DNA from: Laccaria trichodermophora
Lineage: Eukaryota; Basidiomycota; Agaricomycetes; Agaricales; Hydnangiaceae
NCBI GenBank assembly: GCA_018417955.1
Contig: JACTVC010000008.1
Span: forward strand, 372,001 to 436,000
Reading direction: 5' to 3'
Length of the DNA: 64,000 nucleotides
Under the pieces are notes generated by a model. It had not been told where the DNA came from and did not search any database. It worked only from the letters and a program-made list of their open reading frames with translations. Of the stretch, positions 50-42,077 are shown piece after piece (the first letter of the stretch is position 1; each line of letters begins with the position of its first letter). The position numbers and the translations under genes were made by a program.

Positions 50-891
50 GTGACACATGAGAGAGAGGCTTTAGCAAATCTCTATAATGCCCCAGTTACA
101 CTGACGGCAGAGACTTTGATAAGCATTTCCCCAGGTATTAGACACGACTTGATTAAAGCTTTATCTAAGAAAAGGATGCCAGTACAACAAGCTCAAAACA
201 GAAAAGTTACTATGATGGAAGAGCCTGACGTTGATGCAGTACCGTTAAAACCTACAAAATTTGAATTGGAGGTGGACGCAATATCCATCAATGATTTAAA
301 TATAAAAGCGGCTTTTATAGTGACAACAAGAGATGAAGGAAACGTGCCAAAAGGGTCTATCATAATCAGTGATCCAGTAGCACAATACCTGCAGAGTTTA
401 GGTCCGTCTGAGAAACCGAAACAAATCTATGTTGCAAAGGAGTCTCATGTGTTACGAACTGTCTTCCCAGTGATTAATAGAATGGGACAGATTGAATGTT
501 TGTTAGATGCTGGTTCTCAAATTATTGCCATGGATGTGGAAGTGGCTAAGAAATTGGCCATCTCATGGGATCCAGACATAAAAATTCAAATGCAGAGTGC
601 AAACAGGACAGTTGAACAGACCCTGGGTCTTGCTAAGAATGTACCCTTTATCTTTGGAACTATAACGGCATCACTGACCCAGCATATAAAGTGCTATTGG
701 GCAGACCATTTGATGTATTGACAGAGAGTACTGTACAGAATTATAAAGACGGGGGACAAACTCTTATCATAGCAGATCCTAATTCAACACAACAATGTGT
801 ATTACCTACACATGAAAGAGGAAGACCACCTGTTGTAATGAAAGCAGAAATTCCTAAGCCATCTGAGGATTTTCGGTCTTCGATGAATTGA
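50..891 (+). pseudogene. Gypsy polyprotein, aspartic protease segment (frameshifted)
   Basis: Reading frame 50-721 ends in a retropepsin-like core: CLLDAGSQIIAM near nt 499-534 carries the D-(S/T/A)-G active-site pattern, here DAG instead of the usual DSG or DTG. Fungal Gypsy proteases normally continue into a conserved LLGRPFDVLT segment. That segment is present but in another frame (691-891), so one or a few bases were lost around 660-690. A second shift near 885 brings in the main pol frame. In a live element the protease would cut the polyprotein in the virus-like particle. The start at 50 is only the first ATG in the window; the true start lies upstream. Confidence 0.8.
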
Positions 892-3800
892 TCAAAGATC
901 AAGGAGAGATCACTGTAACCTTGATAGATGATGGTAATGGTGGTTTTGAATGCAAGTCATATACATTACCAGGGAATGGAAAATTTGAGCAAGAAGAATT
1001 AAGAAATCTTTACTTGCTCCAAACCTTGAGAAATGAAAAACACATAGAAGAAAAAGACGGTCCTGCGCTTGTGAGTTACTTAGGGAAATATTTCTCTGAT
1101 GTAAACTTAGAGTCGGGGGGGATCCAAAATGTTGAAACCATGATGAATGTCATTTATGACCATGAGGATAAAGCAGCACCTAAGGAAAAGAAAGAGGATC
1201 CTGTGGAAACTAGAGAGACTTTTGTTACGAAGAAATACAAGCCGGTTGCACAGAAAATCAGGCCAGTATACCAAGACCTCCCAGATAAATTCAGAATAAT
1301 TTGTGATATTAAAGGGAATTCTCTTGACACTCTCCCAAAGTTGAACAGGACGCCTCCTGACTTTGTACCCACAGGACGCTACACTGAAGAGAGAAAGGAA
1401 CAATTTGACAAAGTCCACAGCAGTGACTTTTTGTGGCCAGAAGAACGAAAATTATTACACCATTTTATGATGGAGAATAATGAGGCTTTTGCATGGGATG
1501 ACTCTGAGAGAGGAAGATTCAAACCAGAATACTTCCCACCTGTAGACATTCCTGTTATACCACATACACCCTGGGTATTGAAAAATATTCCTATCCCACC
1601 AGGATTATTCTCAGAAGTATGTAAAATCATTAAGACAAAGATAGATGCTGGAGTTTATGAACCTTCAAATTCGTCTTATAGATCATGGTGGTTTTGCATA
1701 TTAAAGAAAGATGGAAAAAGCTTGCGAATTGTACAAAGTCTAGAACCGTTGAATGCAGTCACAATAGCGCGCTCGGGTTTACCACCTGCAACAGATGCAC
1801 TTGCAACACATTTCTCAGGTTGGGCATGTGGAGGCATGTTTGATTTATATGTAGGATATGATGAGAGACTTTTAGCAGAGTCTTCTCGGGATTTGACTAC
1901 TTTTCAGACACCTTTCGGTGCTTTGCGACTTGTAATGTTACCAATGGGTTGGACTAATTCAGTGCCAATATTCCACGATGATGTCACATACATTCTACAA
2001 GACGAGATACCAGATATTACAGTACCATATATTGATGATGTACCTTGCAGAGGTCCGGTGGCTAGATATGAATTACCTGGAGGAAAATTTGAGACTATAC
2101 CAGAAAATGAAGGCATAAGACATTTTGTAATGGAACACTTTGAGAATGTTAACAGAGTGGTTCACAGGATGAAATATGCTGGAGGAACTTTCTTGGGTTT
2201 TAAATCCACAATTTGTGTGGCTGAAATTACTGTAGTAGGTCATTTATGCACATATGAAGGAAGGAAACCAGAGACGGACAGAGTAAAGGTCATTGATAAT
2301 TGGGGACCTTGTAAAAATCTGCATGATGTGAGAGCATTTCTCGGAATTGTTGGGGTATGCCAGATGTTTATTGAAAACTTTGCAAAGAAAGCACAGCCTA
2401 TCAATGACTTGGCCAGGAAAGGTGCTCATTTTGAATGGGGGCTTGCTCAAGAAGAATCCATGGCAGAACTCAAGAAAAGTCTCAGAGAATGTCCTGCATT
2501 GGTGCCTTTAGATTATATTAATAATCCCAATCCAGTCGTACTAGCAGTAGACACCTCATGGAAGGCTGTTGGCTTTTACATCTTTCAAGATGACAAAGAT
2601 ACAGGAAAAAGAAACTATGCAAGGTTTGGTTCTATAACCTTGAATGACAGAGAAGCAAGAATGTCACAACCAAAGAGAGAATTATTTGGACTCATGAGAG
2701 CCCTTGAAGCTGCTTCATATTGGCTACTTGGTGTAAGACGTTTAATAGTGGAAACAGATGCAAAGTACCTTGCTGGAATGCTAACTAATCCTGGCATGGG
2801 ACCAAATGCTACTGTAAATAGATGGATTGACAAAATCCTCATGTTCCACTTTACGTTGCAACATGTAAAAGGAAAGACCTTTGCAGCAGATGGACTTTCT
2901 AGAAGAGATTGGCAACCTGGAGATGAAGTGTTTACAAATTCAGAAGAAAACATGGACGAACCAGTGGGCACTCTAGAAGTTTTAGCAGACCCTAATGGTG
3001 GTGAACCACCATTAAATTTTGAAGACTTTAAAGACCAAATAGATACTCGTGGAGGTTATGTTCTATCATTAGCATTATCAATTGATGACTTTTATGATGA
3101 ACTTGATAGAGAAGAAGCAATGAGTGAGCAGTTTGCAGAAAGCATCAAACAAAAGATTGAAAATGATGAAAATAACCTGACTTGTAGTGAAGAACAGAAG
3201 GACTTCTTAAGAACCTTTGTAGTATCCACTTTAATCCCAGATTTGAGAGCCAGGTATGATGAAATGGAAACAGAGGACCCATATCCTGAAGAAGGACGCT
3301 CTTTCCTAGGAAAGGCTCATGATGATTATCTGCCGTTAGTACGAATTTGATTGAAAAATCCAAATGTTCGACCTGAAAATCTTACAGACAAACAGTATAT
3401 TTCATTTACAAGATTTGCAAAAGGGTTTTTTGTTGACAAAGAAGACAGATTATACAGGAGGAGCGTAGACTCCAGACACAAACTGGTGGTAGACAAATCA
3501 CATAGAATGTACATGATGCGTGCAGCTCATGATAGTCTTGGACATAGAGGTGCATATGCTACGAGAATGATGTTAGGAGAAAGATTCTGGTGGCCAGACA
3601 TTGAATGCGATATTACATGGTATGTGAAAACCTGCCATCACTGCCAAGAAAGGTCCAAAAGAATTATAGAAATTCCTCCAATGGTTACTCATACACCCTC
3701 TATTTTTCAAGTCCTTCATGCTGATACTGTTCATGTAACACCTGCATCTAATGGATGTAAATACATTGTACATGGAAGATGCACTTTATCCAGTTATATG

Positions 3801-4766
3801 GAAGGAAGACCTCTGAAGAAAGAAACGGTGCGGACTATAGCACTCTGGCTATTTGAAGAAGTAATTTGCAGATGGGGCTGCCTATCCGAAATTATTACAG
3901 ATAATGGTGCTGTATTTCTTGCAGCTGTAAGATGGCTTCAAGAAAAGTATGGAATAAAGGGAATACAAATTTCCACATACAATTCTAAGGCAAATGGAAG
4001 AATTGAGAGACCGCATTGGGATGTAGTACAAATGTTAGCCAAATGCTGTGGACCACAGAACCTTGCTAAATGGTATTGATTCTTTTGGCAGGTACTATGG
4101 GCAGATAGAATCATGGTTAGAAAGCATTTTGGTTGCTTGCCGTTTTTCATGGTTACTGGTGCACATCCACTGATACCACTTGACGTTCAAGAAGCTACAT
4201 GGTTAGTTAAATTACCAGATCGTGTTTTAACTACAGAAGAGCTTATTGGCTATAGAGCAAGAGCTTTGGCCAAACACAGGGTTCACATTGCAGATATGAG
4301 AAGGAGAGTGACCTTAGAGAAAATGACAAGAGTAGAAAAGTACGAAATTGAACATAGGAATAAAATCGTTGGTAGAATTTACAAACCAGGGGACTTGGTT
4401 CTTGTCAGAAACACAAGCGTTGAGTCATCCCTGAATAGAAAAATGAAACCACGATATTTAGGCCTGATGATTATAATCAGGTGTTCCAAGGGAGGTTCGT
4501 ACATTGTGGCGGAAATGGATGGGGCTGTGTTTCAAAATAAAGTTGGGGCCTTTAGAATTATTCCTTACTTTGCAAGGACTAAGATAATGCTTCCCGACGA
4601 TATTTATGAAATCATAGACCTCAACAAAGAAAGCTTAGACAAATTAGACGAAGAAGGACTTAAAGATCATGTCAATTCGAATGACTATTACTTCGAAGGT
4701 GTAAATCTGGACCAAAACGTTCAAGATGACGTCGGCAGAATGGAAGCAGACAATGATGATGATTAG
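888..4766 (+). pseudogene. Gypsy pol: reverse transcriptase, RNase H, integrase (two in-frame TGA)
   Basis: One frame holds all pol enzymes. The RT core runs from about 1600 to 2260, with FDLYVGYDER and the catalytic PYIDDV box (about 2025-2042). RNase H runs from about 2540 to 2900 (VLAVDTSWKAVGFY, a YxxxxRELFGLMRALE-like helix, ETDAKYLAGM). The integrase zinc finger near 3530-3650 has H-x-H and CHHC spacing (HDSLGHRG, then CHHCQER). The integrase core shows D (LHADTVH), D (ITDNGAVF) and E (NGRIERPH). The tail at 4113-4766 has a basic linker and a GPY/F-like segment. In-frame TGA codons at 3348 and 4077 split the frame into three pieces without changing phase. TTG at 888 is just where the open frame begins after the upstream frameshift, not a credible initiator. 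Confidence 0.92.
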
Positions 4767-19841: not shown

Positions 19842-22800
19842 TCAGACTGCTGGACCTGAGGCCCGGTATTGCAAGCGCGAGGAACCAGGGCCAGGGCCAG
19901 GATGGATTGGTCTGTCTACAGTATCCTTCTGGGGCATCGGACGCGACTGCTTTGTTTTTTTGCGATCTGGAGCCCTGCTTTTGCGTTTCTTAGTCTTGAA
20001 ACTGGCATAGTTGTAAGTTTGTTCTTGCAGGTCTTCGCAGACATCTTGAGCAGCAACAAGAACTTCTTTGAATGATTTGCAGGTGGCAGGGCCAGTCAAC
20101 AACTCATGCATTTTCTTGTGAAGGCCCTCAGGGTAAATGAGGTTGATAAGCATGGTGATATGAGAAGCGATAGGTCTCCAGTAATTGGTGATGAATTGCT
20201 CTGGCTCAAGGCGCATGTTGTCGATGTCTAGATGCTTGTAATCCTTGATGAAATGAAGTATATGTTCATGGTGCCATCTAGCTATGCTGTAGTCTTGCTT
20301 CACCTCAGTTGAAGATTTAGCAGTGGGTCCACATGTAAAGTGCACAATATGAAGAATGACCAAGAGCATTGACTTCAAGAGGTTGTGATGGTTGCATTAG
20401 GTCAATGGACATACAGTGACTAGGCAAAAGTCTTGCACCACACAAATAATTCTATATCCTCTCCAAGTTCAAAGAAATGGTTACCATATATATATGGTAA
20501 TATACATATAATCTATATATATCTTTGACATAAATATGAGATCTGGATCTCATGCTCTGCTCCATGTAGGAAAAAATGAAAAAATGGGGTTTTGAGAGTT
20601 TTACAGATACTTCATGTGTGGGTCTAAAAAAATGTGAAGAATTAAGTACTTGCTAACTCAAGTATACAGCACTTTGAATCATATCAATTGGATTGGCGGT
20701 TTTTGAGATATAGGTGTAAGAAAAGGGCTTATTTTGGTCAAATGTGGTGAAATATGGACTATTTGACCAAAACAAGCTCTTTTCTTACACCTATATCTCA
20801 ACAACCACTAATCCAATTGATATGATTCAAAGTGCTGTATACTTGAGTTAGCAAGTACTTAATTCTTCACATTTTTCTAGACCCTTACATGAAGTATCTG
20901 TAAAACTCTCAAAACCCCATTTTTTCATTTTTTCCTACATGGAGCAGAGCATGAGATCCAGATCTCATATTTATGTCAAAGATATATATAGATTATATGT
21001 ATATTACCATATATATATGGTAACCATTTCTTTGAACTTGGAGAGGATATAGAATTATTTGTGTGGTGCAAGACTTTTGCCTAGTCACTGTATAGGGCAC
21101 AGTCCCCTACAGATAATTAATATATGAATGCACAAAGGTGACTTCGATGTACAGATGTCTTTGCAGAAATTGTATTCTTCGGGCACGAATAGTCAAAATC
21201 AATTACACTTCCACCAGAACCCAAGCTGTGGGGGAACCTGGTGTCTGTACTAGGCAGCACCGTCTCCCAGGGTATCAAGCCATTGTCCTTAGTACCAAAT
21301 GACAAAGAATTTCCGATACCTGGGTTGACTGTAGTGGTGGTAGGGGAATTCCCTGACGATGACCCAGAGAGAGGGGCATTCGCTAATTGCTTATCAGCAG
21401 TGGTAGACAGTTGATGCATGGCAGCATCCAAAGCAGCAAGAATGCTGGGAAGAAATCTGACAATGACGACATTGCTAATGGAAATGTCGCCATGCACCAA
21501 ACCACATTTATTGTGCAGAAACTCAAGTTCTATGAAAGGTTCAGCAATTGAATTGCAATATGGTTGAGTAAAATTGAGCACTCATGATCCACGATGTCTA
21601 TCAATGCCTGCAGACATTCAACACATGAACGGTATGAGGTGATGGGATCTCCAATTGGACCAGTGACAATACAATGATGAATACATGTGGGGACCAGGGT
21701 CGTTACATATCCTCTAGGTTCATCAGTGTGGTTGACACAATCTTCACCAGCAACAAACCTTGGCCTGAGAAATCGAGAGTGATTGTCAGTGGAGCCCTCC
21801 GCATTGGCTATCCTACTGATTTTCTTGATGTGATCAATCTCGGAGCTTTGGTGAGTGGCTAAAATCCACAAGTCTTTGAAGATGTGAAAATGGCCACGTG
21901 TGTCCTTGACAATGTAGACACAGGTTCCCTGGCCAAAAAGGTATGGACATGAGTGTACTTCCTGGATAATTGTGAAAACTTGTTGGTCGATGAGCACTTC
22001 CGTCGGATTGCTGGTGAAGTGATTGAGAGTGACACGGGTATCGACTCCAAGCAGCTCCTCGCTTCCAAATGTGAGGGCGAAGATTATACAAGCAAGAGTC
22101 AAAGCATCGTAGCCCTTGAGGTGAGCTGGCTTGGTTTGAATGGCACCAGCTTGATCAATGAGGGTAAAGAAGTACATCATGTCGGCGCCTTTGCCATAGA
22201 ACCCAAGGCCGAGAATATACCGGCAATGTAGTTGAGAGTCAAAGACGACAGCAGCCTTTGACACCAGCATCTCAATGAGCGAATGATGATGGTTTGATTT
22301 AACGGATACTTCAACCAAAGCTTGGACTAACGGCCATATAACATGGCCATTGGGAGAGACGTCAGGAGTGAGGTTATGTTTTGTATTGTGGTCAATGAGA
22401 ACGATATCAGGTTTCCAAATGAGGAATCCTCCATGAAGCAGTTTGATGCAGCCCTCATCATCAAAGATATGACCTGGCTGTGTGATCGACTGATCATTTC
22501 TGGAAGCCTGGTCAGTAGAATTGGTTGACGATGCAGGATGATGAATGCCACCTAATAATTTGCCCACAGAATTCAACCATTCCATTGCTGTTCTCTCGCT
22601 TGAAGTGTTGAGAGGCTGGTAAAAGGTGTGGTCACCAACTTGTTGCGTACTCCTTCCCAGCCACAGCTCTTTGTTGGTAGAAATGAGGTTTGGATCAAAG
22701 GGTACAGGGAGTTTTTGGGAGGAAAGAAGATGTTTGACCCAAGTGGGTGGGGCATTTGTAACAATATTCGTTTTAGCGGTGTTCACGGCATTGATATGTC

Positions 22801-23294
22801 CTGCGGTCGAGTATTTCTTGGAGTGTGTCTTCTCCCATGTGCCAACATTGTCAACAGATGGCATATTGGAACTACTATGCTGCTGTCCTAGACCCTCCGC
22901 ACTGATGTATTCCTTGAATATGTCAGGGTGGGTGAGAGAGGTCCAGCAGATGGGACAAGGAAGGGTGGGTGGTACACACCAAGTGTCCTTCCTCGCTGCT
23001 TCATCATCAGCTGCTTGTATCAAAGGAGGGATCCCTCTCAGATCAATGACACCGGTAGTGCTCGTGCTGCTGTTCATGATTCTGGATTGATCGCGGGGAT
23101 CTCTGAGTTGCTCTCAGACCAGGCGAAGCTGTATATTGATGGATCGACCTTGGATGTGAGCTTAGGCTTTCTAGACTGCATGGAGGGGAAGGCTGGAAGA
23201 TTGGAGCCATAGTCAGAGCAAGATGAGAGGCAGAAAGATCCGGAGGCAGAGTGTGAGGAAGATAAACTGGCAGAGTGAGGGTGGGAGTGAGGCA
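19842..23294 (-). pseudogene. FunK1 fungal-type protein kinase, split by a MITE
   Basis: FunK1-type kinase on the minus strand. The N-lobe region is one long open stretch (23077 to about 21590). A GTGCTC/TTCATAG intron (about 21532-21584) joins it in frame to LEFLHNKCGLVHGDISISN, with the catalytic-loop HGDIS. The DFG-equivalent follows as SVIDFDYS (about 21175-21200). Next comes a 46-nt intron, then GTVPY, where the 677-bp MITE at 20414-21090 sits. Beyond it, MSIDLM continues the activation segment. The C-lobe continues from about 20378 (SMLLVILHIVHFTCGPT), after a one-base shift near 20385, to a stop at 19842 behind a basic Lys/Arg tail. The start is uncertain: ATG 23077 begins the clean frame, while a Ser-rich frame from ATG 23294 is one base out of phase. 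Confidence 0.85.
20414..21090. mobile_element. Palindromic Tc1/mariner-type MITE (677 bp) inside FunK1
   Basis: An almost perfect full-length palindrome: the two halves mirror each other around about 20750, apart from a short loop and scattered differences. Termini are CAGTGACTAGGCAAAAGTCT and its inverse. TA flanks both ends (20412-20413 and 21091-21092), the Tc1/mariner target duplication. The first 28 terminal bases differ at only about three positions from those of the complete transposon at 40472-42077. No coding capacity. Confidence 0.92.
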
Positions 23295-30083: not shown

Positions 30084-30295
30084 GGAAAGGCTTTGTTTTC
30101 AGTCAGTTACTGAAATTTTCAGATAGTCATCACAATCTTAACATGTATAAGATATCACAGAGGTCAATTGTTACAAAAGTTTTCATGAAGCTATTTGAAC
30201 AAGTTATTGACCTCTGTGAAGTAAGAGTTTATAATTGGTATATCTTCACAAATTTTTCAAGATCTTCCAACAGACAGTAAGTAATGATCAGGCCA
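30083..30295 (+). pseudogene. 3' exon fragment of an NLR-like gene (paralogue of 30545-34216)
   Basis: On the plus strand this stretch reads ...SIVTKVFMKLFEQVIDLCE, clearly related to SMITRNLIKIFQEVIDLYE at the end of exon 2 of the NLR-like gene, which lies on the minus strand. It is followed by the same GTAAGA donor, a similar intron ending CCAACAG, the triplet ACA and a GTAAGT donor. So it keeps the start of the micro-exon array. The copy is cut at its 5' side by a TIR-element end and its 3' side runs into the tail of the other copy, giving a tail-to-tail arrangement. Confidence 0.75.
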
Positions 30296-30544: not shown

Positions 30545-33500
30545 TCATTGTAATCTGGATAGCTGTGTCTCTCTCTATATATTTTGAACATGAATATTGA
30601 GTAAGTGGTAACAGATAGAAAAAAAGCATACCCTCTAAAAATGGGAGAGTTGTATGACACCAAAGATTCTAATATGGTAGAAAATGGAGTTGACTTGCCC
30701 ACTATATATTGGAAATAAGTGACCTGGTTAAATAATGTGAAGAAGTACATACTTTCTAACAAAGAGAATGGTTGAAAGAGGAGCTGGAATTGGAAATGGA
30801 TCAAAGACATACAAGCTACAAAACATGAGCATTCTTCTATAATAAGAAATAAAAACATACAATCTGATTTAGAATAATCATATATCAGAGTGATGGAAAT
30901 GAGAGTGAATGGACAACCTACAGTCTAAAAAAATGAAGTGAAGAGATGTTATATAATTGGTCTATAGAATGCTTAAACTTGACTAACCTCCTTAAAAGAT
31001 ATTGATTGAAGATTGATTACCTGATAAAGAATAATTACTGAATAGATACAGATTGAAAAACAAAATGTACAAAATAAAACTTACAAGATATGCAGGAGAG
31101 ACCACATACTTTCTTAAGAAAAGTAAGGAGAGATAGTGTGATAAGAGTAATTCATGGCCAAAAGCAAAGAAACTCACTGGCTAAAAAGAAGCACCAAAAT
31201 ATGTGTTACCAGAAGGGTGTACATTAAAAACCAGGCCAGCTCACAAACTGAAACAAGACAGGCCACAGTCAGTCTCACCAGAAGAGTGCACATTAAAAAC
31301 CAGGCCAACTCACAAACTGAAACAAGACAGGCCACAGTCAGTCTCACCAGAAGAGTGCACATTAAAAACCAGGCCAACTCACAGACTAAAACAAGACTGG
31401 CCACAGTCAGTCTCACCAGAAGAGTGCACATCAAAAACCAGACCAACTCACCCTCTGAAACAAGACAGGCCACAGTTAGTCTCACCAGAAGAACACACAT
31501 TAAAAACCAGGCTGACTCACCCTCTGAAACATGACAGGCCACAGTCAGGCTTACCACAAGAGTACACATAAAAACCAGGCCAACTCACATCCTGAAACAA
31601 GACAGGCCACAGTCAGTGTCACCAGAAGAGTGCATGTCAAAAACCAGACCAACTTACTTTCTGTAAAAGAATGGCCAGAGCATGTGTTTTCTAAGTGTGC
31701 AAAATCAAATGCAGGAAAGCATACTTCCTGAAATAGGGAAAAGCACATCATAATCACCAGAACAGTACACAAGAAAGGGAAAGGCCAGAGAATGAGTCAG
31801 CATATTAGTTAATATTTAATAGGGGAACAACTCACAGTCTAGCAAATGGTAGTTGTAGAAGAGAATTGAGTCAGAACATAGTTATTTCAGACACTTAATA
31901 ATAACTTACCCACTAAAGAAATCCCTTATATTCATTCAGAGACAATGTAAATAGACCATATTTCACCTTCTAAATTCATAAACATGAACATTAGCTGTAC
32001 AAGTAGCAAGGTCAACAGTAATACTTACTTTCTGAAAGAAACAGGCAGCTGCTCATAAGATGTGACATATTATGCAAAATCTTGGCCCACATACTAATGA
32101 CAACCATGAGAATAGATAAAAACTTGAACAATTTGTAGACATACATTCTGCAAGAAAAAACAACAGTCAGAATAAATCTATTCTTCTCTTGATGATTGTT
32201 TTGTTCTTACTTCCTGTGCTTTATCAATGGCAATAAAATTTTCTTTTAAATTGTCTTACATTCTATAAAATAGATCAATATGCTATTTTGATACATCTTA
32301 GTCACTGTATACAACCACATACCTCCTATTAACCTTACAGATTAACTTGTGAGCAGCATCACACTCCTGTTACTTACTGTCTGTTGGAAGATCTCAATAA
32401 ATAACCAGACATGTCTCCATTATAAACTCTTACTTCATATAAATCAATGACTTCTTGAAATATCTTGATCAAATTCCTTGTAATCATTGACCCTTGCAAT
32501 GTCTTATACCTGTCAGGAAATGATAACCATTTCAGAGAATTGCAATAACTCACCTGAAAAAAAATCTTTCCATCCTTCACACAACTTAACATCCTAGCCC
32601 TCTGAGAACCTGGAAAAGTCAGCATGGTATTATACCATGTTTTACTCTGAAAAATCAGTAACTTTTTAATGAGAGTTACCATAGCAGTCATAATTGTTTC
32701 ATCCACATTTGATCCTTGCTCCTGGAATGCCAAAAGAATATGGTGTGGCCAATTAAGGGAAGCATACTTGACCACATCACCCTCAAAAAAGTCTTTTGGA
32801 GGATATTTGACCAGATGCTGCAAAGACAGTACAGCTAGATGAACATGTTGCAGAGGAGGATTGATAAAATATTGCTTTGATCGTGATTGGATGGTCAAAA
32901 AATCCCAGAGAGATGTGTGATAGAGCATAATTGGCTTATCATCATCTCCAGGAATTTTGATAATGGACTGTACTTGCAATAGCCCACAAATGACCTCCTC
33001 ACACTGAAGAGAGAGGAGAGAGCTGAGAAAGGAAATGGATTTGTTCTCTGTCAGAACCATGATTGTTCCAAGAATCTGACAGAAGTCTTCTGTCCAAGAA
33101 GCAGAAGAGAGGACTTGTTCATAGAGTAAATCTAGACCATTAGCTCCTGATGCCAGAAGTTTTTGCAAGGCTCTGTGTGGCATGGGATTTCCACCAACAC
33201 ATTGGACCAATGTAGTAGAAAATGCAAATGAACTACCAGCCTTGTGAAGAAGAATAGTGAGATCACCAGCTGATGGCCAGGGCTTTGGTATTTTCTGCAT
33301 GACTCGCTGATTTTGGTGATAGATAGAATCAAATGCCCTCCGAAAATGTACTTTGATGTCTGGACGAGCATCAAAATCCTGTAGCTCCAGACAGTGTAAA
33401 AAACGAGCTTCAGAACTATCAAACTGTTTTCGAATATGTTCCTCTACCCTGCTAGTGAGGAGAATCCGGAAAGGAAAATATGTCCCCCCAGAAGATGCAC

Positions 33501-34216
33501 TGAGCAGGACATCAATGAAGTTAGCCATCTCAGCTTTATCATCACATTCATCAAGAGCATCAATAACAACAACAGAGCTATAGGAGATTCGTGAAGTGTT
33601 GAGATGGATTGGGTCTATGATGAGCCTTTGAAGTCGATGAGCCATAGAGACAGTCAACCCGAGCAGGGCTGGCTCATTCTCAAGAGCACGTTCAATAGAT
33701 GGCTTTGCACCAGGAACAGTGAGAGAGATCTGATGGGCAAGAGTAGGAATCAGGCGAGATATATGGCTGCGTTCACCAGCCCCTCGTAAAAAGAAGAAGC
33801 TCCCTAAGAGGCGGCCCTCTGCAGCATAGCGCTCCGCAATGGTTTGCGCCAATGCCGATTTGCCATAGCCAGCTGGTCCGTTAAGCCAACAGACAACAGC
33901 TCGCTTCTCATTGTCATGGCCATCGAGCCGCTGTCGGATCTGGGCAATCACCTCCAAACGAGTGCCAGGATCACATCGAGGGACGTGACCTGCGCGAGTA
34001 TGTGTAGCATTACTGACAGGCCCAAGCAAGCTCGCTAGACCTATGTGTCATCAGTTGTATGAGTGGTATTGATGGATTGTGAAACTTTGACGTACTTGGA
34101 GCGGGCAGAGGGCCATGAAGAACAACATTGCCGCCGGCGTTTATGACCTGTGCGTTTCCAGATATGGTGGTTCCGATAGCGTTTTGCAGGAGCGTGGTAA
34201 ATGACGAAGAATCCAT
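30545..34216 (-). CDS. NLR-like NACHT NTPase with a 3' array of 27 three-nucleotide exons
   Basis: Exon 1 (34216-34096; MDSSSFTTLLQNAIG) and exon 2 (34040-32434), joined across a 55-nt intron, give exactly 576 codons. NACHT motifs: Walker A GPAGYGKSALAQ (about 33870) and Walker B VVVIDALDECDD (about 33540-33575). Fungal STAND NTPases of this class are thought to act in non-self recognition. After GAA|GTAAGA at 32434 the minus strand shows acceptor-triplet-donor 27 times. Lowest base of each triplet, in transcript order: 32378, 32323, 32260, 32211, 32145, 32091, 32029, 31967, 31910, 31836, 31725, 31658, 31589, 31521, 31452, 31383, 31314, 31245, 31178, 31110, 30988, 30922, 30861, 30813, 30753, 30699, 30632. 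Introns are 45-119 nt. A last exon (30574-30545) adds nine codons and TGA, for 612 aa. Splicing is inferred; read-through would instead stop at 32374. Confidence 0.72.
31181..31661 (-). repeat. 69-bp tandem repeat = one intron plus one 3-nt exon
   Basis: Seven consecutive units of 68-69 bp. Read on the minus strand, each is GTGAGTTGGCCTGG..., an ACTGAC branch-site-like element, CTTGTTTCAG, and a variable triplet (AAA, GAT, AGG, AGG, TCT, TTT, TTT). The 66-nt part keeps donor, branch-like and acceptor signals while the triplet varies. Outside this block the introns are unrelated in sequence but keep the same spacing. Confidence 0.9.
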
Positions 34217-40471: not shown

Positions 40472-42077
40472 CAGTGACTCGGCAAAAGTGTTGCATCACG
40501 TGAAGCCAAGTCATAAATGCATCTGCTATACACGCTAGAGCGACATTGGGAGGTTCTTACTTTACAGGTAGTATCTATGGTGTGTAGCAAATATGCAGGT
40601 AAAATGACTTGCATTGGAGACAAGAAATAGAGGAGAACGACGCGCAACATCGTGAATTGCTGGTGCAGGACTTTTACGGCTATTTCCGAAAACATCAACC
40701 ACCACCCATCCCTCGTCTTTCGAGGACACTACAATGAATCTTTGCACACTTTTTTGACACAGTCACCCTCCTGACTCATGACCGAGACTACACCTACAAA
40801 GAAATCACGCATTGTTCAACTCAAAGACCTTGGGCACACCAATCGTGATGTGGCGGAGAAGGAAAATGTCGACCCATCTACAGTCTCTCGCATTTACGGC
40901 CGTTATGGCAAAACACGAAAATTTTATGAGAAGAAGCATCGGTCAGGTCGCCCACACAAGTTGAATGACTACGACATGCGTATTGCCCTACGAAAGCTCT
41001 CCAGTGGATCAGCACGCAATGCGACGGACCTCCAACAGAAGGAATTTCCGAATGTCAGTGTCGATACACTGCGACGGGAGCTCGAAAGACGTGGCTTTAA
41101 TGCGCGAATACGTCGCAAGAAGCCTCTGCTGACACCAATACACAAGAGGAAGCGAAGGGAGTGGGCATTTGCCCATGGATTATGGCAGAAGGACAACTGG
41201 CAGGCTGTTTGGTATTCAGATGAGTCCAAGTTCAATCTTTTTGGGTCAGATGGGCGGGAGTGGTGCTGGAGAAGGCCTGGGGAGGAGTTTAGAGACTGTA
41301 ACACCCAGAAGACAGTGAAGCACGGTGGAGGGAGTGTGATGGTTTGGGGGTGCATCACACCCTATGGTGTCGGCCGTCTGCACCGCATCGATGGAATCAT
41401 GGACGCATCAAAATATGTCACCATTTTGAATGACAACCTCTTGGGTACCCTACGCGACTACAGTGTTAGGCCTCAGGCCATTTATTTCCAGCAAGATAGT
41501 GACCCAAAGCACACGTCGAAGCTTGCAAAAGCTTGGTTCGCCTCTAATCACATTGATGTCCTTGCTTGGCCACCTAATTCACCCGACATGAACATCATCG
41601 AGAATCTCTGGAGTCACCTTGATCGCATGGTGTGTGCGAGGAATCCGCTACCACGCAATCGCGATGAATTATGGGAGGCATTACAGGAGGAATGGACGAG
41701 GATTGACATTGACTATATTACACGTTTGTATGACAGCATTCCGGATCGGGTGGATGCAATTCGAAAGGCAGGTGGAGGAGAGACTCGCTATTAATTGTAT
41801 GTCTGTTTACCATAGCTATTGAATGCTCAACTGGCATTTCCGACCACAAAGGATGCCTTCACATGACACCCAGCAAAAGTCATGCACCACCTTTTTTCAA
41901 TGCTACATGGATTGCTCGTTTAATATGGGCTCTGGATACAAATAATTTGACACATATTTAGACTATATCTAAACCATTTACCACCCCTAATTTGAAGGCG
42001 AAAGGGTGCTCACAACGTGCGTAGTGAACAGGTTGTTCAATTGACTCACGTGATGCAACACTTTTGCCGAGTCACTG
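40472..42077. mobile_element. Complete Tc1/mariner transposon (1606 bp)
   Basis: Terminal inverted repeats of 32 bp are identical at both ends (outermost 20: CAGTGACTCGGCAAAAGTGT), flanked by TA at 40470-40471 and 42078-42079. It encodes one intact transposase on the plus strand. Perfect ends and an unbroken gene indicate recent insertion and possible activity. A degenerate copy of the terminal core, in opposite orientation, occurs inside each end (about 40658-40684 and 41872-41892). Confidence 0.96.
40778..41794 (+). CDS. Tc1-like DD34E transposase
   Basis: 338 aa, the normal length for Tc1-family transposases. N-terminal half: paired-type helix-turn-helix DNA binding (QLKDLGHTNRDVAEKENVDP, STVSRIYGRYG) and a GRPHKL linker resembling the GRPR minor-groove motif. 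Catalytic core: first Asp in WYSDESKFNLFG, second in YFQQDSDPKHTSK, and Glu in NIIENLWSHLDR, with 34 residues between the second Asp and the Glu. The enzyme would bind the terminal repeats, cut the element out and insert it at TA. The ATG at 40778 is the first in frame and gives the expected N-terminus. It is the only source of mariner-type transposase in the window and could in principle act on the related MITE at 20414. Confidence 0.96.
   Translation: MTETTPTKKSRIVQLKDLGHTNRDVAEKENVDPSTVSRIYGRYGKTRKFYEKKHRSGRPHKLNDYDMRIALRKLSSGSARNATDLQQKEFPNVSVDTLRRELERRGFNARIRRKKPLLTPIHKRKRREWAFAHGLWQKDNWQAVWYSDESKFNLFGSDGREWCWRRPGEEFRDCNTQKTVKHGGGSVMVWGCITPYGVGRLHRIDGIMDASKYVTILNDNLLGTLRDYSVRPQAIYFQQDSDPKHTSKLAKAWFASNHIDVLAWPPNSPDMNIIENLWSHLDRMVCARNPLPRNRDELWEALQEEWTRIDIDYITRLYDSIPDRVDAIRKAGGGETRY

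Follow-up and report, generated by a model that had tools for sequence, protein, structure and literature searches.

The stretch analysed here, a 64,000-nt window of the Laccaria trichodermophora genome (contig JACTVC010000008.1, positions 372,001 to 436,000), carries on its minus strand a gene for a NACHT-type NOD-like receptor (NLR) whose 3' end is a series of 27 predicted exons of three nucleotides each. Comparison with paralogous loci makes it highly likely that this is a fungal NLR with a C-terminal tail encoded one codon per exon, in which the two ends are conserved and the variable middle is built from cassettes.

A series of predicted three-nucleotide exons at the end of an NLR gene

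Candidate exons were scored as a dynamic-programming chain of AG-NNN-GT sites, and the array region reaches a score of 111.6 with 27 sites. For exon lengths of 0-2 and 4-12 nt the same region scores at most 5.0 (six sites at length 7), and a 6-nt chain within the array on the plus strand scores 10.1 with 7 sites. Dinucleotide shuffles of the region (n = 500) give no more than 5 sites and a score of no more than 8.6. Outside the array, 3-nt chains in the window reach a score of 7.6 at best, with 4 sites; the scan of lengths 2, 4, 6 and 9 peaks at 14.6, for a chain of 2-nt exons with 7 sites. The shuffles, the other exon lengths and the window scan rule out a chance origin of the array. A plain 69-nt coding repeat is likewise ruled out: the introns differ by 1-2 nt and most hold stops.

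These results bear out a sequence-only reading of the same DNA, which had placed 27 serial triplets on the minus strand, with introns of 45-119 nt, one GC donor, two weak donors and a terminal exon, and had named the shuffle control; each element lies where it had been placed. That reading had found the weak-donor triplets through even spacing. Homologous sites occur in the paralogues, some with better donors, so even spacing was a fair guide.

The predicted gene runs from 34216 to 30545 and comprises exons 1 to 3, the 27 triplets and the terminal exon. Its features are listed below; C76 is the contig that carries the window's gene, L-numbers denote loci, and "chain" refers to the scoring described above.

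34096..34216, minus: exon 1, 121 nt, MDSSSFTTLLQNAIGTTISGNAQVINAGGNVVLHG..., a short N-terminal segment resembling the start of L. amethystina P0002
32554..34040, minus: exon 2, 1487 nt, NACHT / NPHP3_N NTPase and the part that follows (Pfam, gene model)
32503..32553, minus: probable 51-nt intron, GTGAGT...TATAAG, frame-preserving when retained; absent from L. amethystina model P0048
32434..32502, minus: exon 3, 69 nt, ending in phase 0 at donor GTAAGA (gene model)
32378..32380, minus: triplet 1, ACA (T); ACA in 13 of the 17 loci compared
32323..32325, minus: triplet 2, GAG (E); GAG in 17 of the 17 loci compared
32260..32262, minus: triplet 3, AAT (N); chain, paralogue comparison
32211..32213, minus: triplet 4, GAA (E); chain, paralogue comparison
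32145..32147, minus: triplet 5, AAT (N); chain, paralogue comparison
32091..32093, minus: triplet 6, TAT (Y), weak donor GTGGGC; identical donor in 11 of 16 loci
32029..32031, minus: triplet 7, AAA (K); chain, paralogue comparison
31967..31969, minus: triplet 8, AAG (K), weak donor GTGAAA; better donor GTGAGA/GTAAGA in L022-L024
31910..31912, minus: triplet 9, TGG (W); TGG in 17 of the 17 loci compared
31836..31838, minus: triplet 10, ACT (T); A, V, I, L or T in 16 of 16 loci, eight codons
31725..31727, minus: triplet 11, GAA (E); chain, C76 comparison
31658..31660, minus: triplet 12, AAA (K); chain
31208..31654, minus: 69-nt tandem unit (66-nt intron + codon), 6.5 copies, 88% match; repeat detection
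31589..31591, minus: triplet 13, GAT (D), variable tandem part; chain
31521..31523, minus: triplet 14, AGG (R), variable tandem part; chain
31452..31454, minus: triplet 15, AGG (R), variable tandem part; chain
31383..31385, minus: triplet 16, TCT (S), variable tandem part; chain
31314..31316, minus: triplet 17, TTT (F), variable tandem part; chain
31245..31247, minus: triplet 18, TTT (F), variable tandem part; chain
31178..31180, minus: triplet 19, CCA (P); chain
31110..31112, minus: triplet 20, AAA (K); chain
30988..30990, minus: triplet 21, GAG (E); chain, C76 comparison
30922..30924, minus: triplet 22, ACT (T); chain, C76 comparison
30861..30863, minus: triplet 23, ATT (I); identical in 7 of the 7 C76 loci compared
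30813..30815, minus: triplet 24, CTT (L); identical in 7 of the 7 C76 loci compared
30753..30755, minus: triplet 25, AAA (K); chain, C76 comparison
30699..30701, minus: triplet 26, TGG (W), then conserved GC donor GCAAGT; chain, C76 comparison
30632..30634, minus: triplet 27, AGG (R); chain, C76 comparison
30545..30574, minus: terminal exon, RETQLSRLQ and stop (nine codons); homologous ends [RK][ED]T... in 13 of 16 loci including the window's

Read in phase 0 through all 27 triplets, the predicted product has 595 residues. The upstream part had been given as 576 codons ending in phase 0; the phase is kept and the count falls to 559 once the 51-nt stretch is left out, which looks like an intron, with GTGAGT...TATAAG ends, and is lacking in P0048. 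At the other end, five C76 loci have the terminal-exon acceptor AG twice in succession, and the first AG gives RETQLSRLQ. Exceptions are L014, with a small deletion and run-on, L025, with a run-on of 39 residues, and L024, in which there is no such exon.

The window protein (P0001) matches NPHP3_N (1.1e-23) and NACHT (2e-11) in Pfam, with no match to ANK, WD40 or TPR repeats at E<=0.001. Fungal NLRs without C-terminal superstructure-forming repeats exist, so the missing match leaves membership of the fungal NLRs possible; the codon array occupies the position where such repeats would stand. The N-terminal ISGNAQVINAGGNVV may resemble motifs of effector or amyloid signalling segments. Among the best 120 of 349 proteins, the closest is from Laccaria amethystina, with 80% identity over 90% of the query. 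NCBIfam gives 0 matches, and a PDB profile search gives 0 at E<=0.01. A structure model of the NACHT body (mean predicted local distance difference test, pLDDT, 52.5; predicted template modelling score, pTM, 0.34) is too poor for search or use.

Array-bearing paralogues in the same genome

Used as a DNA query, the 447-nt tandem part yields at least 69 matches, grouped in 16 clusters that are spread over four contigs of this genome, and a protein search places NACHT bodies directly upstream of the array clusters. There are thus at least 15 further loci with the 3' pattern that the sequence-only reading had proposed to look for in paralogous NLR genes of related genomes. All 16 loci carry a triplet chain in the same register, 26 to 103 triplets long and 657 in total. 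Three sites upstream of the conserved first triplet were excluded before counting: in L025 the initial chain site, a TAA overlapping the intron 1 donor, and in L024 the initial two. L020 was counted to its 37th triplet, beyond which later sites exist. Exon 8 of L010 is missing from the chain, and this locus was omitted from the 17-locus triplet/intron comparison. The array start (TENENF-KW-KK) and end (K-ETILKWR) are conserved and the middle is variable.

Outside the 657 triplets stand L026-L028. Two of these, with bodies 50-57% identical, have diverged arrays: 31 triplets in L027, where most introns measure about 54 nt, and 9 in the chain of L026, which has further sites besides. Over the 20 subfamily members examined (the 16, L026, L027, L028 and L034), arrays of at least 9 triplets occur in 18; L028 has three triplets and the partial match L034 none. 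Among NLRs of 34-35% identity, 0 of 5 sampled have an array (3.5-3.7 kb fetched each).

Body residues 1-488 are uninterrupted in 8 of the 16 loci, including the window's gene; L017 is counted among these though its body was fetched in two pieces with one base between. The ratio of nonsynonymous to synonymous divergence (dN/dS) of the bodies is 0.27-0.60 in 35 of 36 pairs.

The C76 contig carries eight array-bearing NLR copies, including the window's, within about 0.6 Mb, with the diverged L026 further along. Six of the other copies have bodies 83-86% identical to the window's, and one copy is in pieces. This contig looks like a birthplace of the subfamily.

Evidence that the triplets are codons

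None of the 657 triplets is a stop, as had been noted for the window's 27; 50.1 stops are expected from positional composition, and within-locus shuffles (n = 2000) give a mean of 49.5 and a minimum of 33. The eight loci with intact bodies have 0 stops in 402 triplets (shuffles: mean 29.7, minimum 17). The arrays of loci with disrupted bodies are still stop-free, with 0 in 255 triplets (mean 19.6, minimum 9).

Comparison with the diverged L027 separates the triplets from their surroundings. Same-index introns are at chance similarity (0.496 vs 0.511 for different-index pairs), whereas triplets agree at the same place in 0.625 of cases vs 0.350, and the first nine codons are recognisable despite the chance-level similarity of the introns. 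Among seven C76 loci, triplet 10 differs in 19 of 21 pairs with its third base always T, and 10 of 19 flank positions never differ.

Synonymous choice differs between arrays and body: GGG for Gly in 23/23 vs 8/34, GTG for Val in 14/17 vs 4/32, and GCA for Ala in 17/18 vs 10/40. Third-base C occurs in 1 of 657 triplets vs 19% in the body. Synonymous choice in the triplets follows what fits the donor, and the bias is partly due to CpG avoidance in the arrays. CpG observed/expected is 0.00-0.02 in six arrays (window 30632-32380, L012, L013, L017, L018 and L023), with 0 CpG in the 3.76 kb of the L013 array, and 0.47 in the NACHT body. The near-absence of CpG suggests that the arrays are heavily cytosine-methylated.

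The three-nucleotide register also persists where the introns vary. In 13 of the 16 loci, 84 of 320 mid-array introns deviate from 66/60 nt while the 3-nt chain continues; with the 66- and 60-nt units set aside, intron lengths modulo 3 are distributed 126/129/109. Retention of a single intron (n = 641) would introduce a stop in 548 cases and a frameshift in 80, leaving an open frame in 13. Skipping one triplet keeps the frame.

One alternative is that the array is a single intron or a long 3' region with tandem repeats, its triplets lost or left unspliced and the protein ending at 32374 or soon after triplet 1. The L. amethystina model P0048, a gene model and not a transcript, is in line with such an end. 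It reads ...LFQ|TSQGS...DFCE|TVSNRR..., which we read as splicing at the 51-nt intron, passage from exon 3 to triplet 1 (ACA) and then a run into the next intron to a stop; an exact-word search gave no database protein with a tail either. Against an early end stand the lack of stops, the codons that are conserved where introns are not, the third bases fitted to the donor, and the short terminal exon, homologous and in one frame in 13 of 16 loci. Together these make an early end very improbable.

No more credible is the proposal that the triplets are recursive splice points for stepwise removal of a long intron, with the codons a by-product. AG-NNN-GT does look like a recursive splice site that leaves 3 nt behind, and 85 of the 657 triplets end in AG (AAG 26, GAG 50, CAG 9) and could remake a zero-length AG/GT. 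A by-product, however, need not avoid stops, nor keep E2, W9, an aliphatic-or-T residue 10 and the I-L-x-W end.

Because stops are absent and codons are conserved without conservation of the introns, it is very probable that each triplet is an exon of one codon and that the series encodes a C-terminal tail. The paralogues, through the lack of stops, codon-level conservation and donor-fitted third bases, thus lend strong support to the tail of one residue per exon that the sequence-only reading had proposed.

Variable codons between homogenised introns

In the tandem middle, intron identity among units is 0.93-0.97 in six C76 loci, 0.91 in L011 and 0.81 in L016. Over all loci with at least seven 66-nt units, mean intron identity is 0.86-0.97, except in the same L016, and codon identity is about a third. 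When 97 C76 units are pooled, intron columns hold at most 1.05 bits and codon columns 1.43-1.92 bits. Eight consecutive identical introns surround differing codons in L009, and in runs of six identical introns the five enclosed codons show differences at 67-87% of sites. The codons of the middle look random, and their rate of change is far above that of the intervening introns.

A direct comparison is that of L009 with L010, whose bodies differ by a dS of 0.022 and a dN of 0.027, the sole pair of 36 with a ratio above 1. The middle of L009 reads TCT TCT TGG GGG GAT GAT GCA AGG ... and that of L010 GAT AGG GGG TTT GAT TGG AGG, with 17 and 7 introns of 66 nt, respectively.

Codons and neighbouring introns are also linked. 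In L013, TTT occurs with one variant of the following intron five times and GAG with another three times (permutations: 0/1000). Over 14 loci, using introns of exactly 66 nt (60 in L018), units with the same codon have more similar neighbouring introns, a link equalled by 1 of 1000 permutations for the following and 0 of 1000 for the preceding intron. This is the pattern that shuffled cassettes would give. On the simplest reading, the middle would consist of a stock of one-codon cassettes that unequal exchange or conversion shifts about within homogenised introns, with selection keeping the codons diverse.

Targeted mutation of codons, as in diversity-generating retroelements, would be another route to the same contrast. 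Codons differ at 66-74% of sites in every intron-divergence class, including the 33 pairs of windows whose six flanking introns diverge by under 1%, which speaks for such a process. Identical codons nevertheless recur across C76 loci, and the L013 codon travels together with its following intron haplotype; targeted mutation is accordingly judged unlikely.

Near-identical introns around unrelated codons also recall introner-like insertion, in which introns would have split an older, once uninterrupted coding stretch codon by codon. All 69 unit matches listed, a lower bound, however, lie within the 16 array clusters, and none of those listed marks a copy in an unrelated gene, as introners would leave. 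Random insertion would not yield 3-nt spacing throughout, and the number of units differs among close paralogues; an introner origin is therefore very improbable.

Several points weigh against the reading of the array as a codon-per-exon tail built from cassettes. The stop statistics overstate independence, because triplets share ancestry by duplication. Flank triplets are kept at 0.914 and introns at 0.950 in C76 pairs (divergence 0.094 vs 0.068), and at 0.747 and 0.761 in the next paralogue group; we read these figures as fast change at some codons with others fixed, and with no sign of overall constraint. Stops, frameshifts or breaks disrupt the body in eight of the 16 loci, which means that the family is in part decaying, and 64 of the 657 donors are weak. 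The link between codon and intron is weak or absent in some loci (682 and 133 of 1000 permutations in L023; no difference in L016). An exact-word search for a tail-bearing protein gave 5 word-sharing candidates, not one of which reached E<=10; this absence is partly expected, since gene callers would miss such a tail. Periodicity tests of the tails for helix and strand fall below 0.05 in 2 of 32 cases (L014 helix, 0.049; L017 strand, 0.030), and coiled-coil or strand periodicity was rejected. Hydrophobic residues of the L017 tail are under-represented at lags 1 and 10 (p 0.004 and 0.002), and its whole-tail helix test gives 0.19. Given the lack of clear periodicity, the tails may be extended or disordered. 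The basis throughout is the DNA sequence of one genome.

Predicted splicing of the array

The 641 introns divide into 620 GT-AG and 21 GC-AG, the ends being imposed by the chain. A branch-like YTNAY motif occurs in 537 of them at a median of 22 nt from the acceptor, a count made without a control. In their GT/GC-AG ends, branch-like motif and short fungal length, the introns match U2-type spliceosomal introns. An exon of 3 nt is too small to hold two splice complexes at once, which implies that removal should be sequential. The short introns would most likely be removed by intron definition and in order, each splice remaking the next donor. Because a skipped triplet costs one residue, alternative splicing may add variants of the tail, as reported for truffle.

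The GC donor that follows the next-to-last triplet, TGG (30693-30701), is GCAAGT in 15 of 16 loci and GCAAGC in L025, and the distant paralogue L027 has TGG|GCAAGT at three places. This conserved GC-AG intron may be regulatory. Separately, the segment 32370-32453 of the window (exon 3 end, intron 1 and triplet 1) has an inverted copy at 30201-30284, with 78% identity over 86 nt. The copy is located beyond the stop, and the whole array is thus flanked by inverted repeats; six of the eight C76 arrays have comparable pieces nearby. Such repeats could pair in RNA or DNA, and the array might loop out.

Comparison with known systems

The sequence-only reading had known of no comparable series, a claim that does not hold. 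Passages of PMC4986451, PMC9815663 and PMC3689799, citing Iotti et al. 2012, report tens or dozens of alternatively spliced 3-bp mini-exons in NACHT-ANK genes of Tuber melanosporum, so that this kind of gene layout is already known. As those passages describe them, the truffle nank genes share with the Laccaria gene a NACHT NLR, dozens of codon-sized exons and a proposed diversification of the C-terminal recognition domain. They are, however, ascomycete NACHT-ANK genes, whereas the Laccaria gene is from a basidiomycete and has no ANK by Pfam; lacking ANK, it is not filed as a nank member. Set against the citing papers' passages, the Laccaria arrays run to 103 codons and have tandem homogenised introns. 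Alternative splicing is a reported feature in truffle and a possibility in the Laccaria array. Among the titles and abstract openings listed by a literature search, with few subscription journals, there was no report of a basidiomycete array, of homogenised introns or of a 100-exon array.

Podospora HNWD and other NLRs of high internal conservation share near-identical tandem units, hypervariable codons and the C-terminal sensor position, according to passages of PMC12222747 and PMC4986451. The constant part of those genes is protein (WD40, TPR or ANK), whereas the constant 66 nt in Laccaria are predicted to be spliced out. Such repeats are marked by unit identity above 85% at the protein level, whereas the 0.86-0.97 obtained here (0.81 in L016) is measured on DNA, in what is predicted to be intron.

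Schistosome micro-exon genes share rows of very short exons and variable proteins. Their micro-exons are symmetric and about 6-36 nt long. They differ in these longer exons, in encoding secreted proteins of an animal parasite, and in having no NLR. In a passage of PMC7392893, a 3-bp micro-exon of Drosophila homothorax is spliced and used, but it is a single exon and not a series. A search of viral contigs with a 19-base unit pattern gave 0 matches.

Other features of the window

Beyond the NLR gene, the window holds the following.

888-4079, plus: retroelement remains with reverse-transcriptase RNase H and integrase zinc-binding domains
21530-23077, minus: fungal-type protein kinase (Pkinase_fungal)
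40778-41794, plus: Tc3-like DDE transposase
about 27.2-27.6 kb, plus, and about 24.8-25.3 kb, minus: seven-site AG-NN-GT chains of equal score on opposite strands, perhaps inverted repeats

Proposed mechanism and implications

In the proposed mechanism, the near-identical introns would provide the homology at which unequal crossing over or conversion takes place. The variable middle would grow, shrink and reshuffle codon by codon, with products that are always in frame. We infer recombination as the motor of this codon turnover from the unit patterns described above.

Sensor repeats of fungal NLRs are C-terminal, and some are near-identical with hypervariable codons, according to passages of PMC4986451 and PMC12222747. 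Since the tail is located where other fungal NLRs carry variable sensor repeats, it would most likely be the recognition part of the receptor; by this analogy, the odds of a sensor role are about even. A broader proposal, held tentatively and short of probable, is that each tail residue may be a movable codon-plus-intron cassette, gained, lost or reordered in frame with the homogenised introns as recombination tracts, that optional 3-nt exons may multiply the repertoire, and that the truffle and Laccaria systems, found in ectomycorrhizal fungi of two different phyla, are possibly independent.

A series of 103 single-codon exons far exceeds what gene finders allow. Sister genes with a body dS of 0.022 already differ in the number and order of their middle codons. 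Provided that splicing proceeds as predicted, a homogenised scaffold that is spliced out would be separated base by base from a hypervariable codon that is kept. This separation would make two questions testable: how the spliceosome handles serial 3-nt exons, and how a receptor may evolve by recombination one residue at a time.

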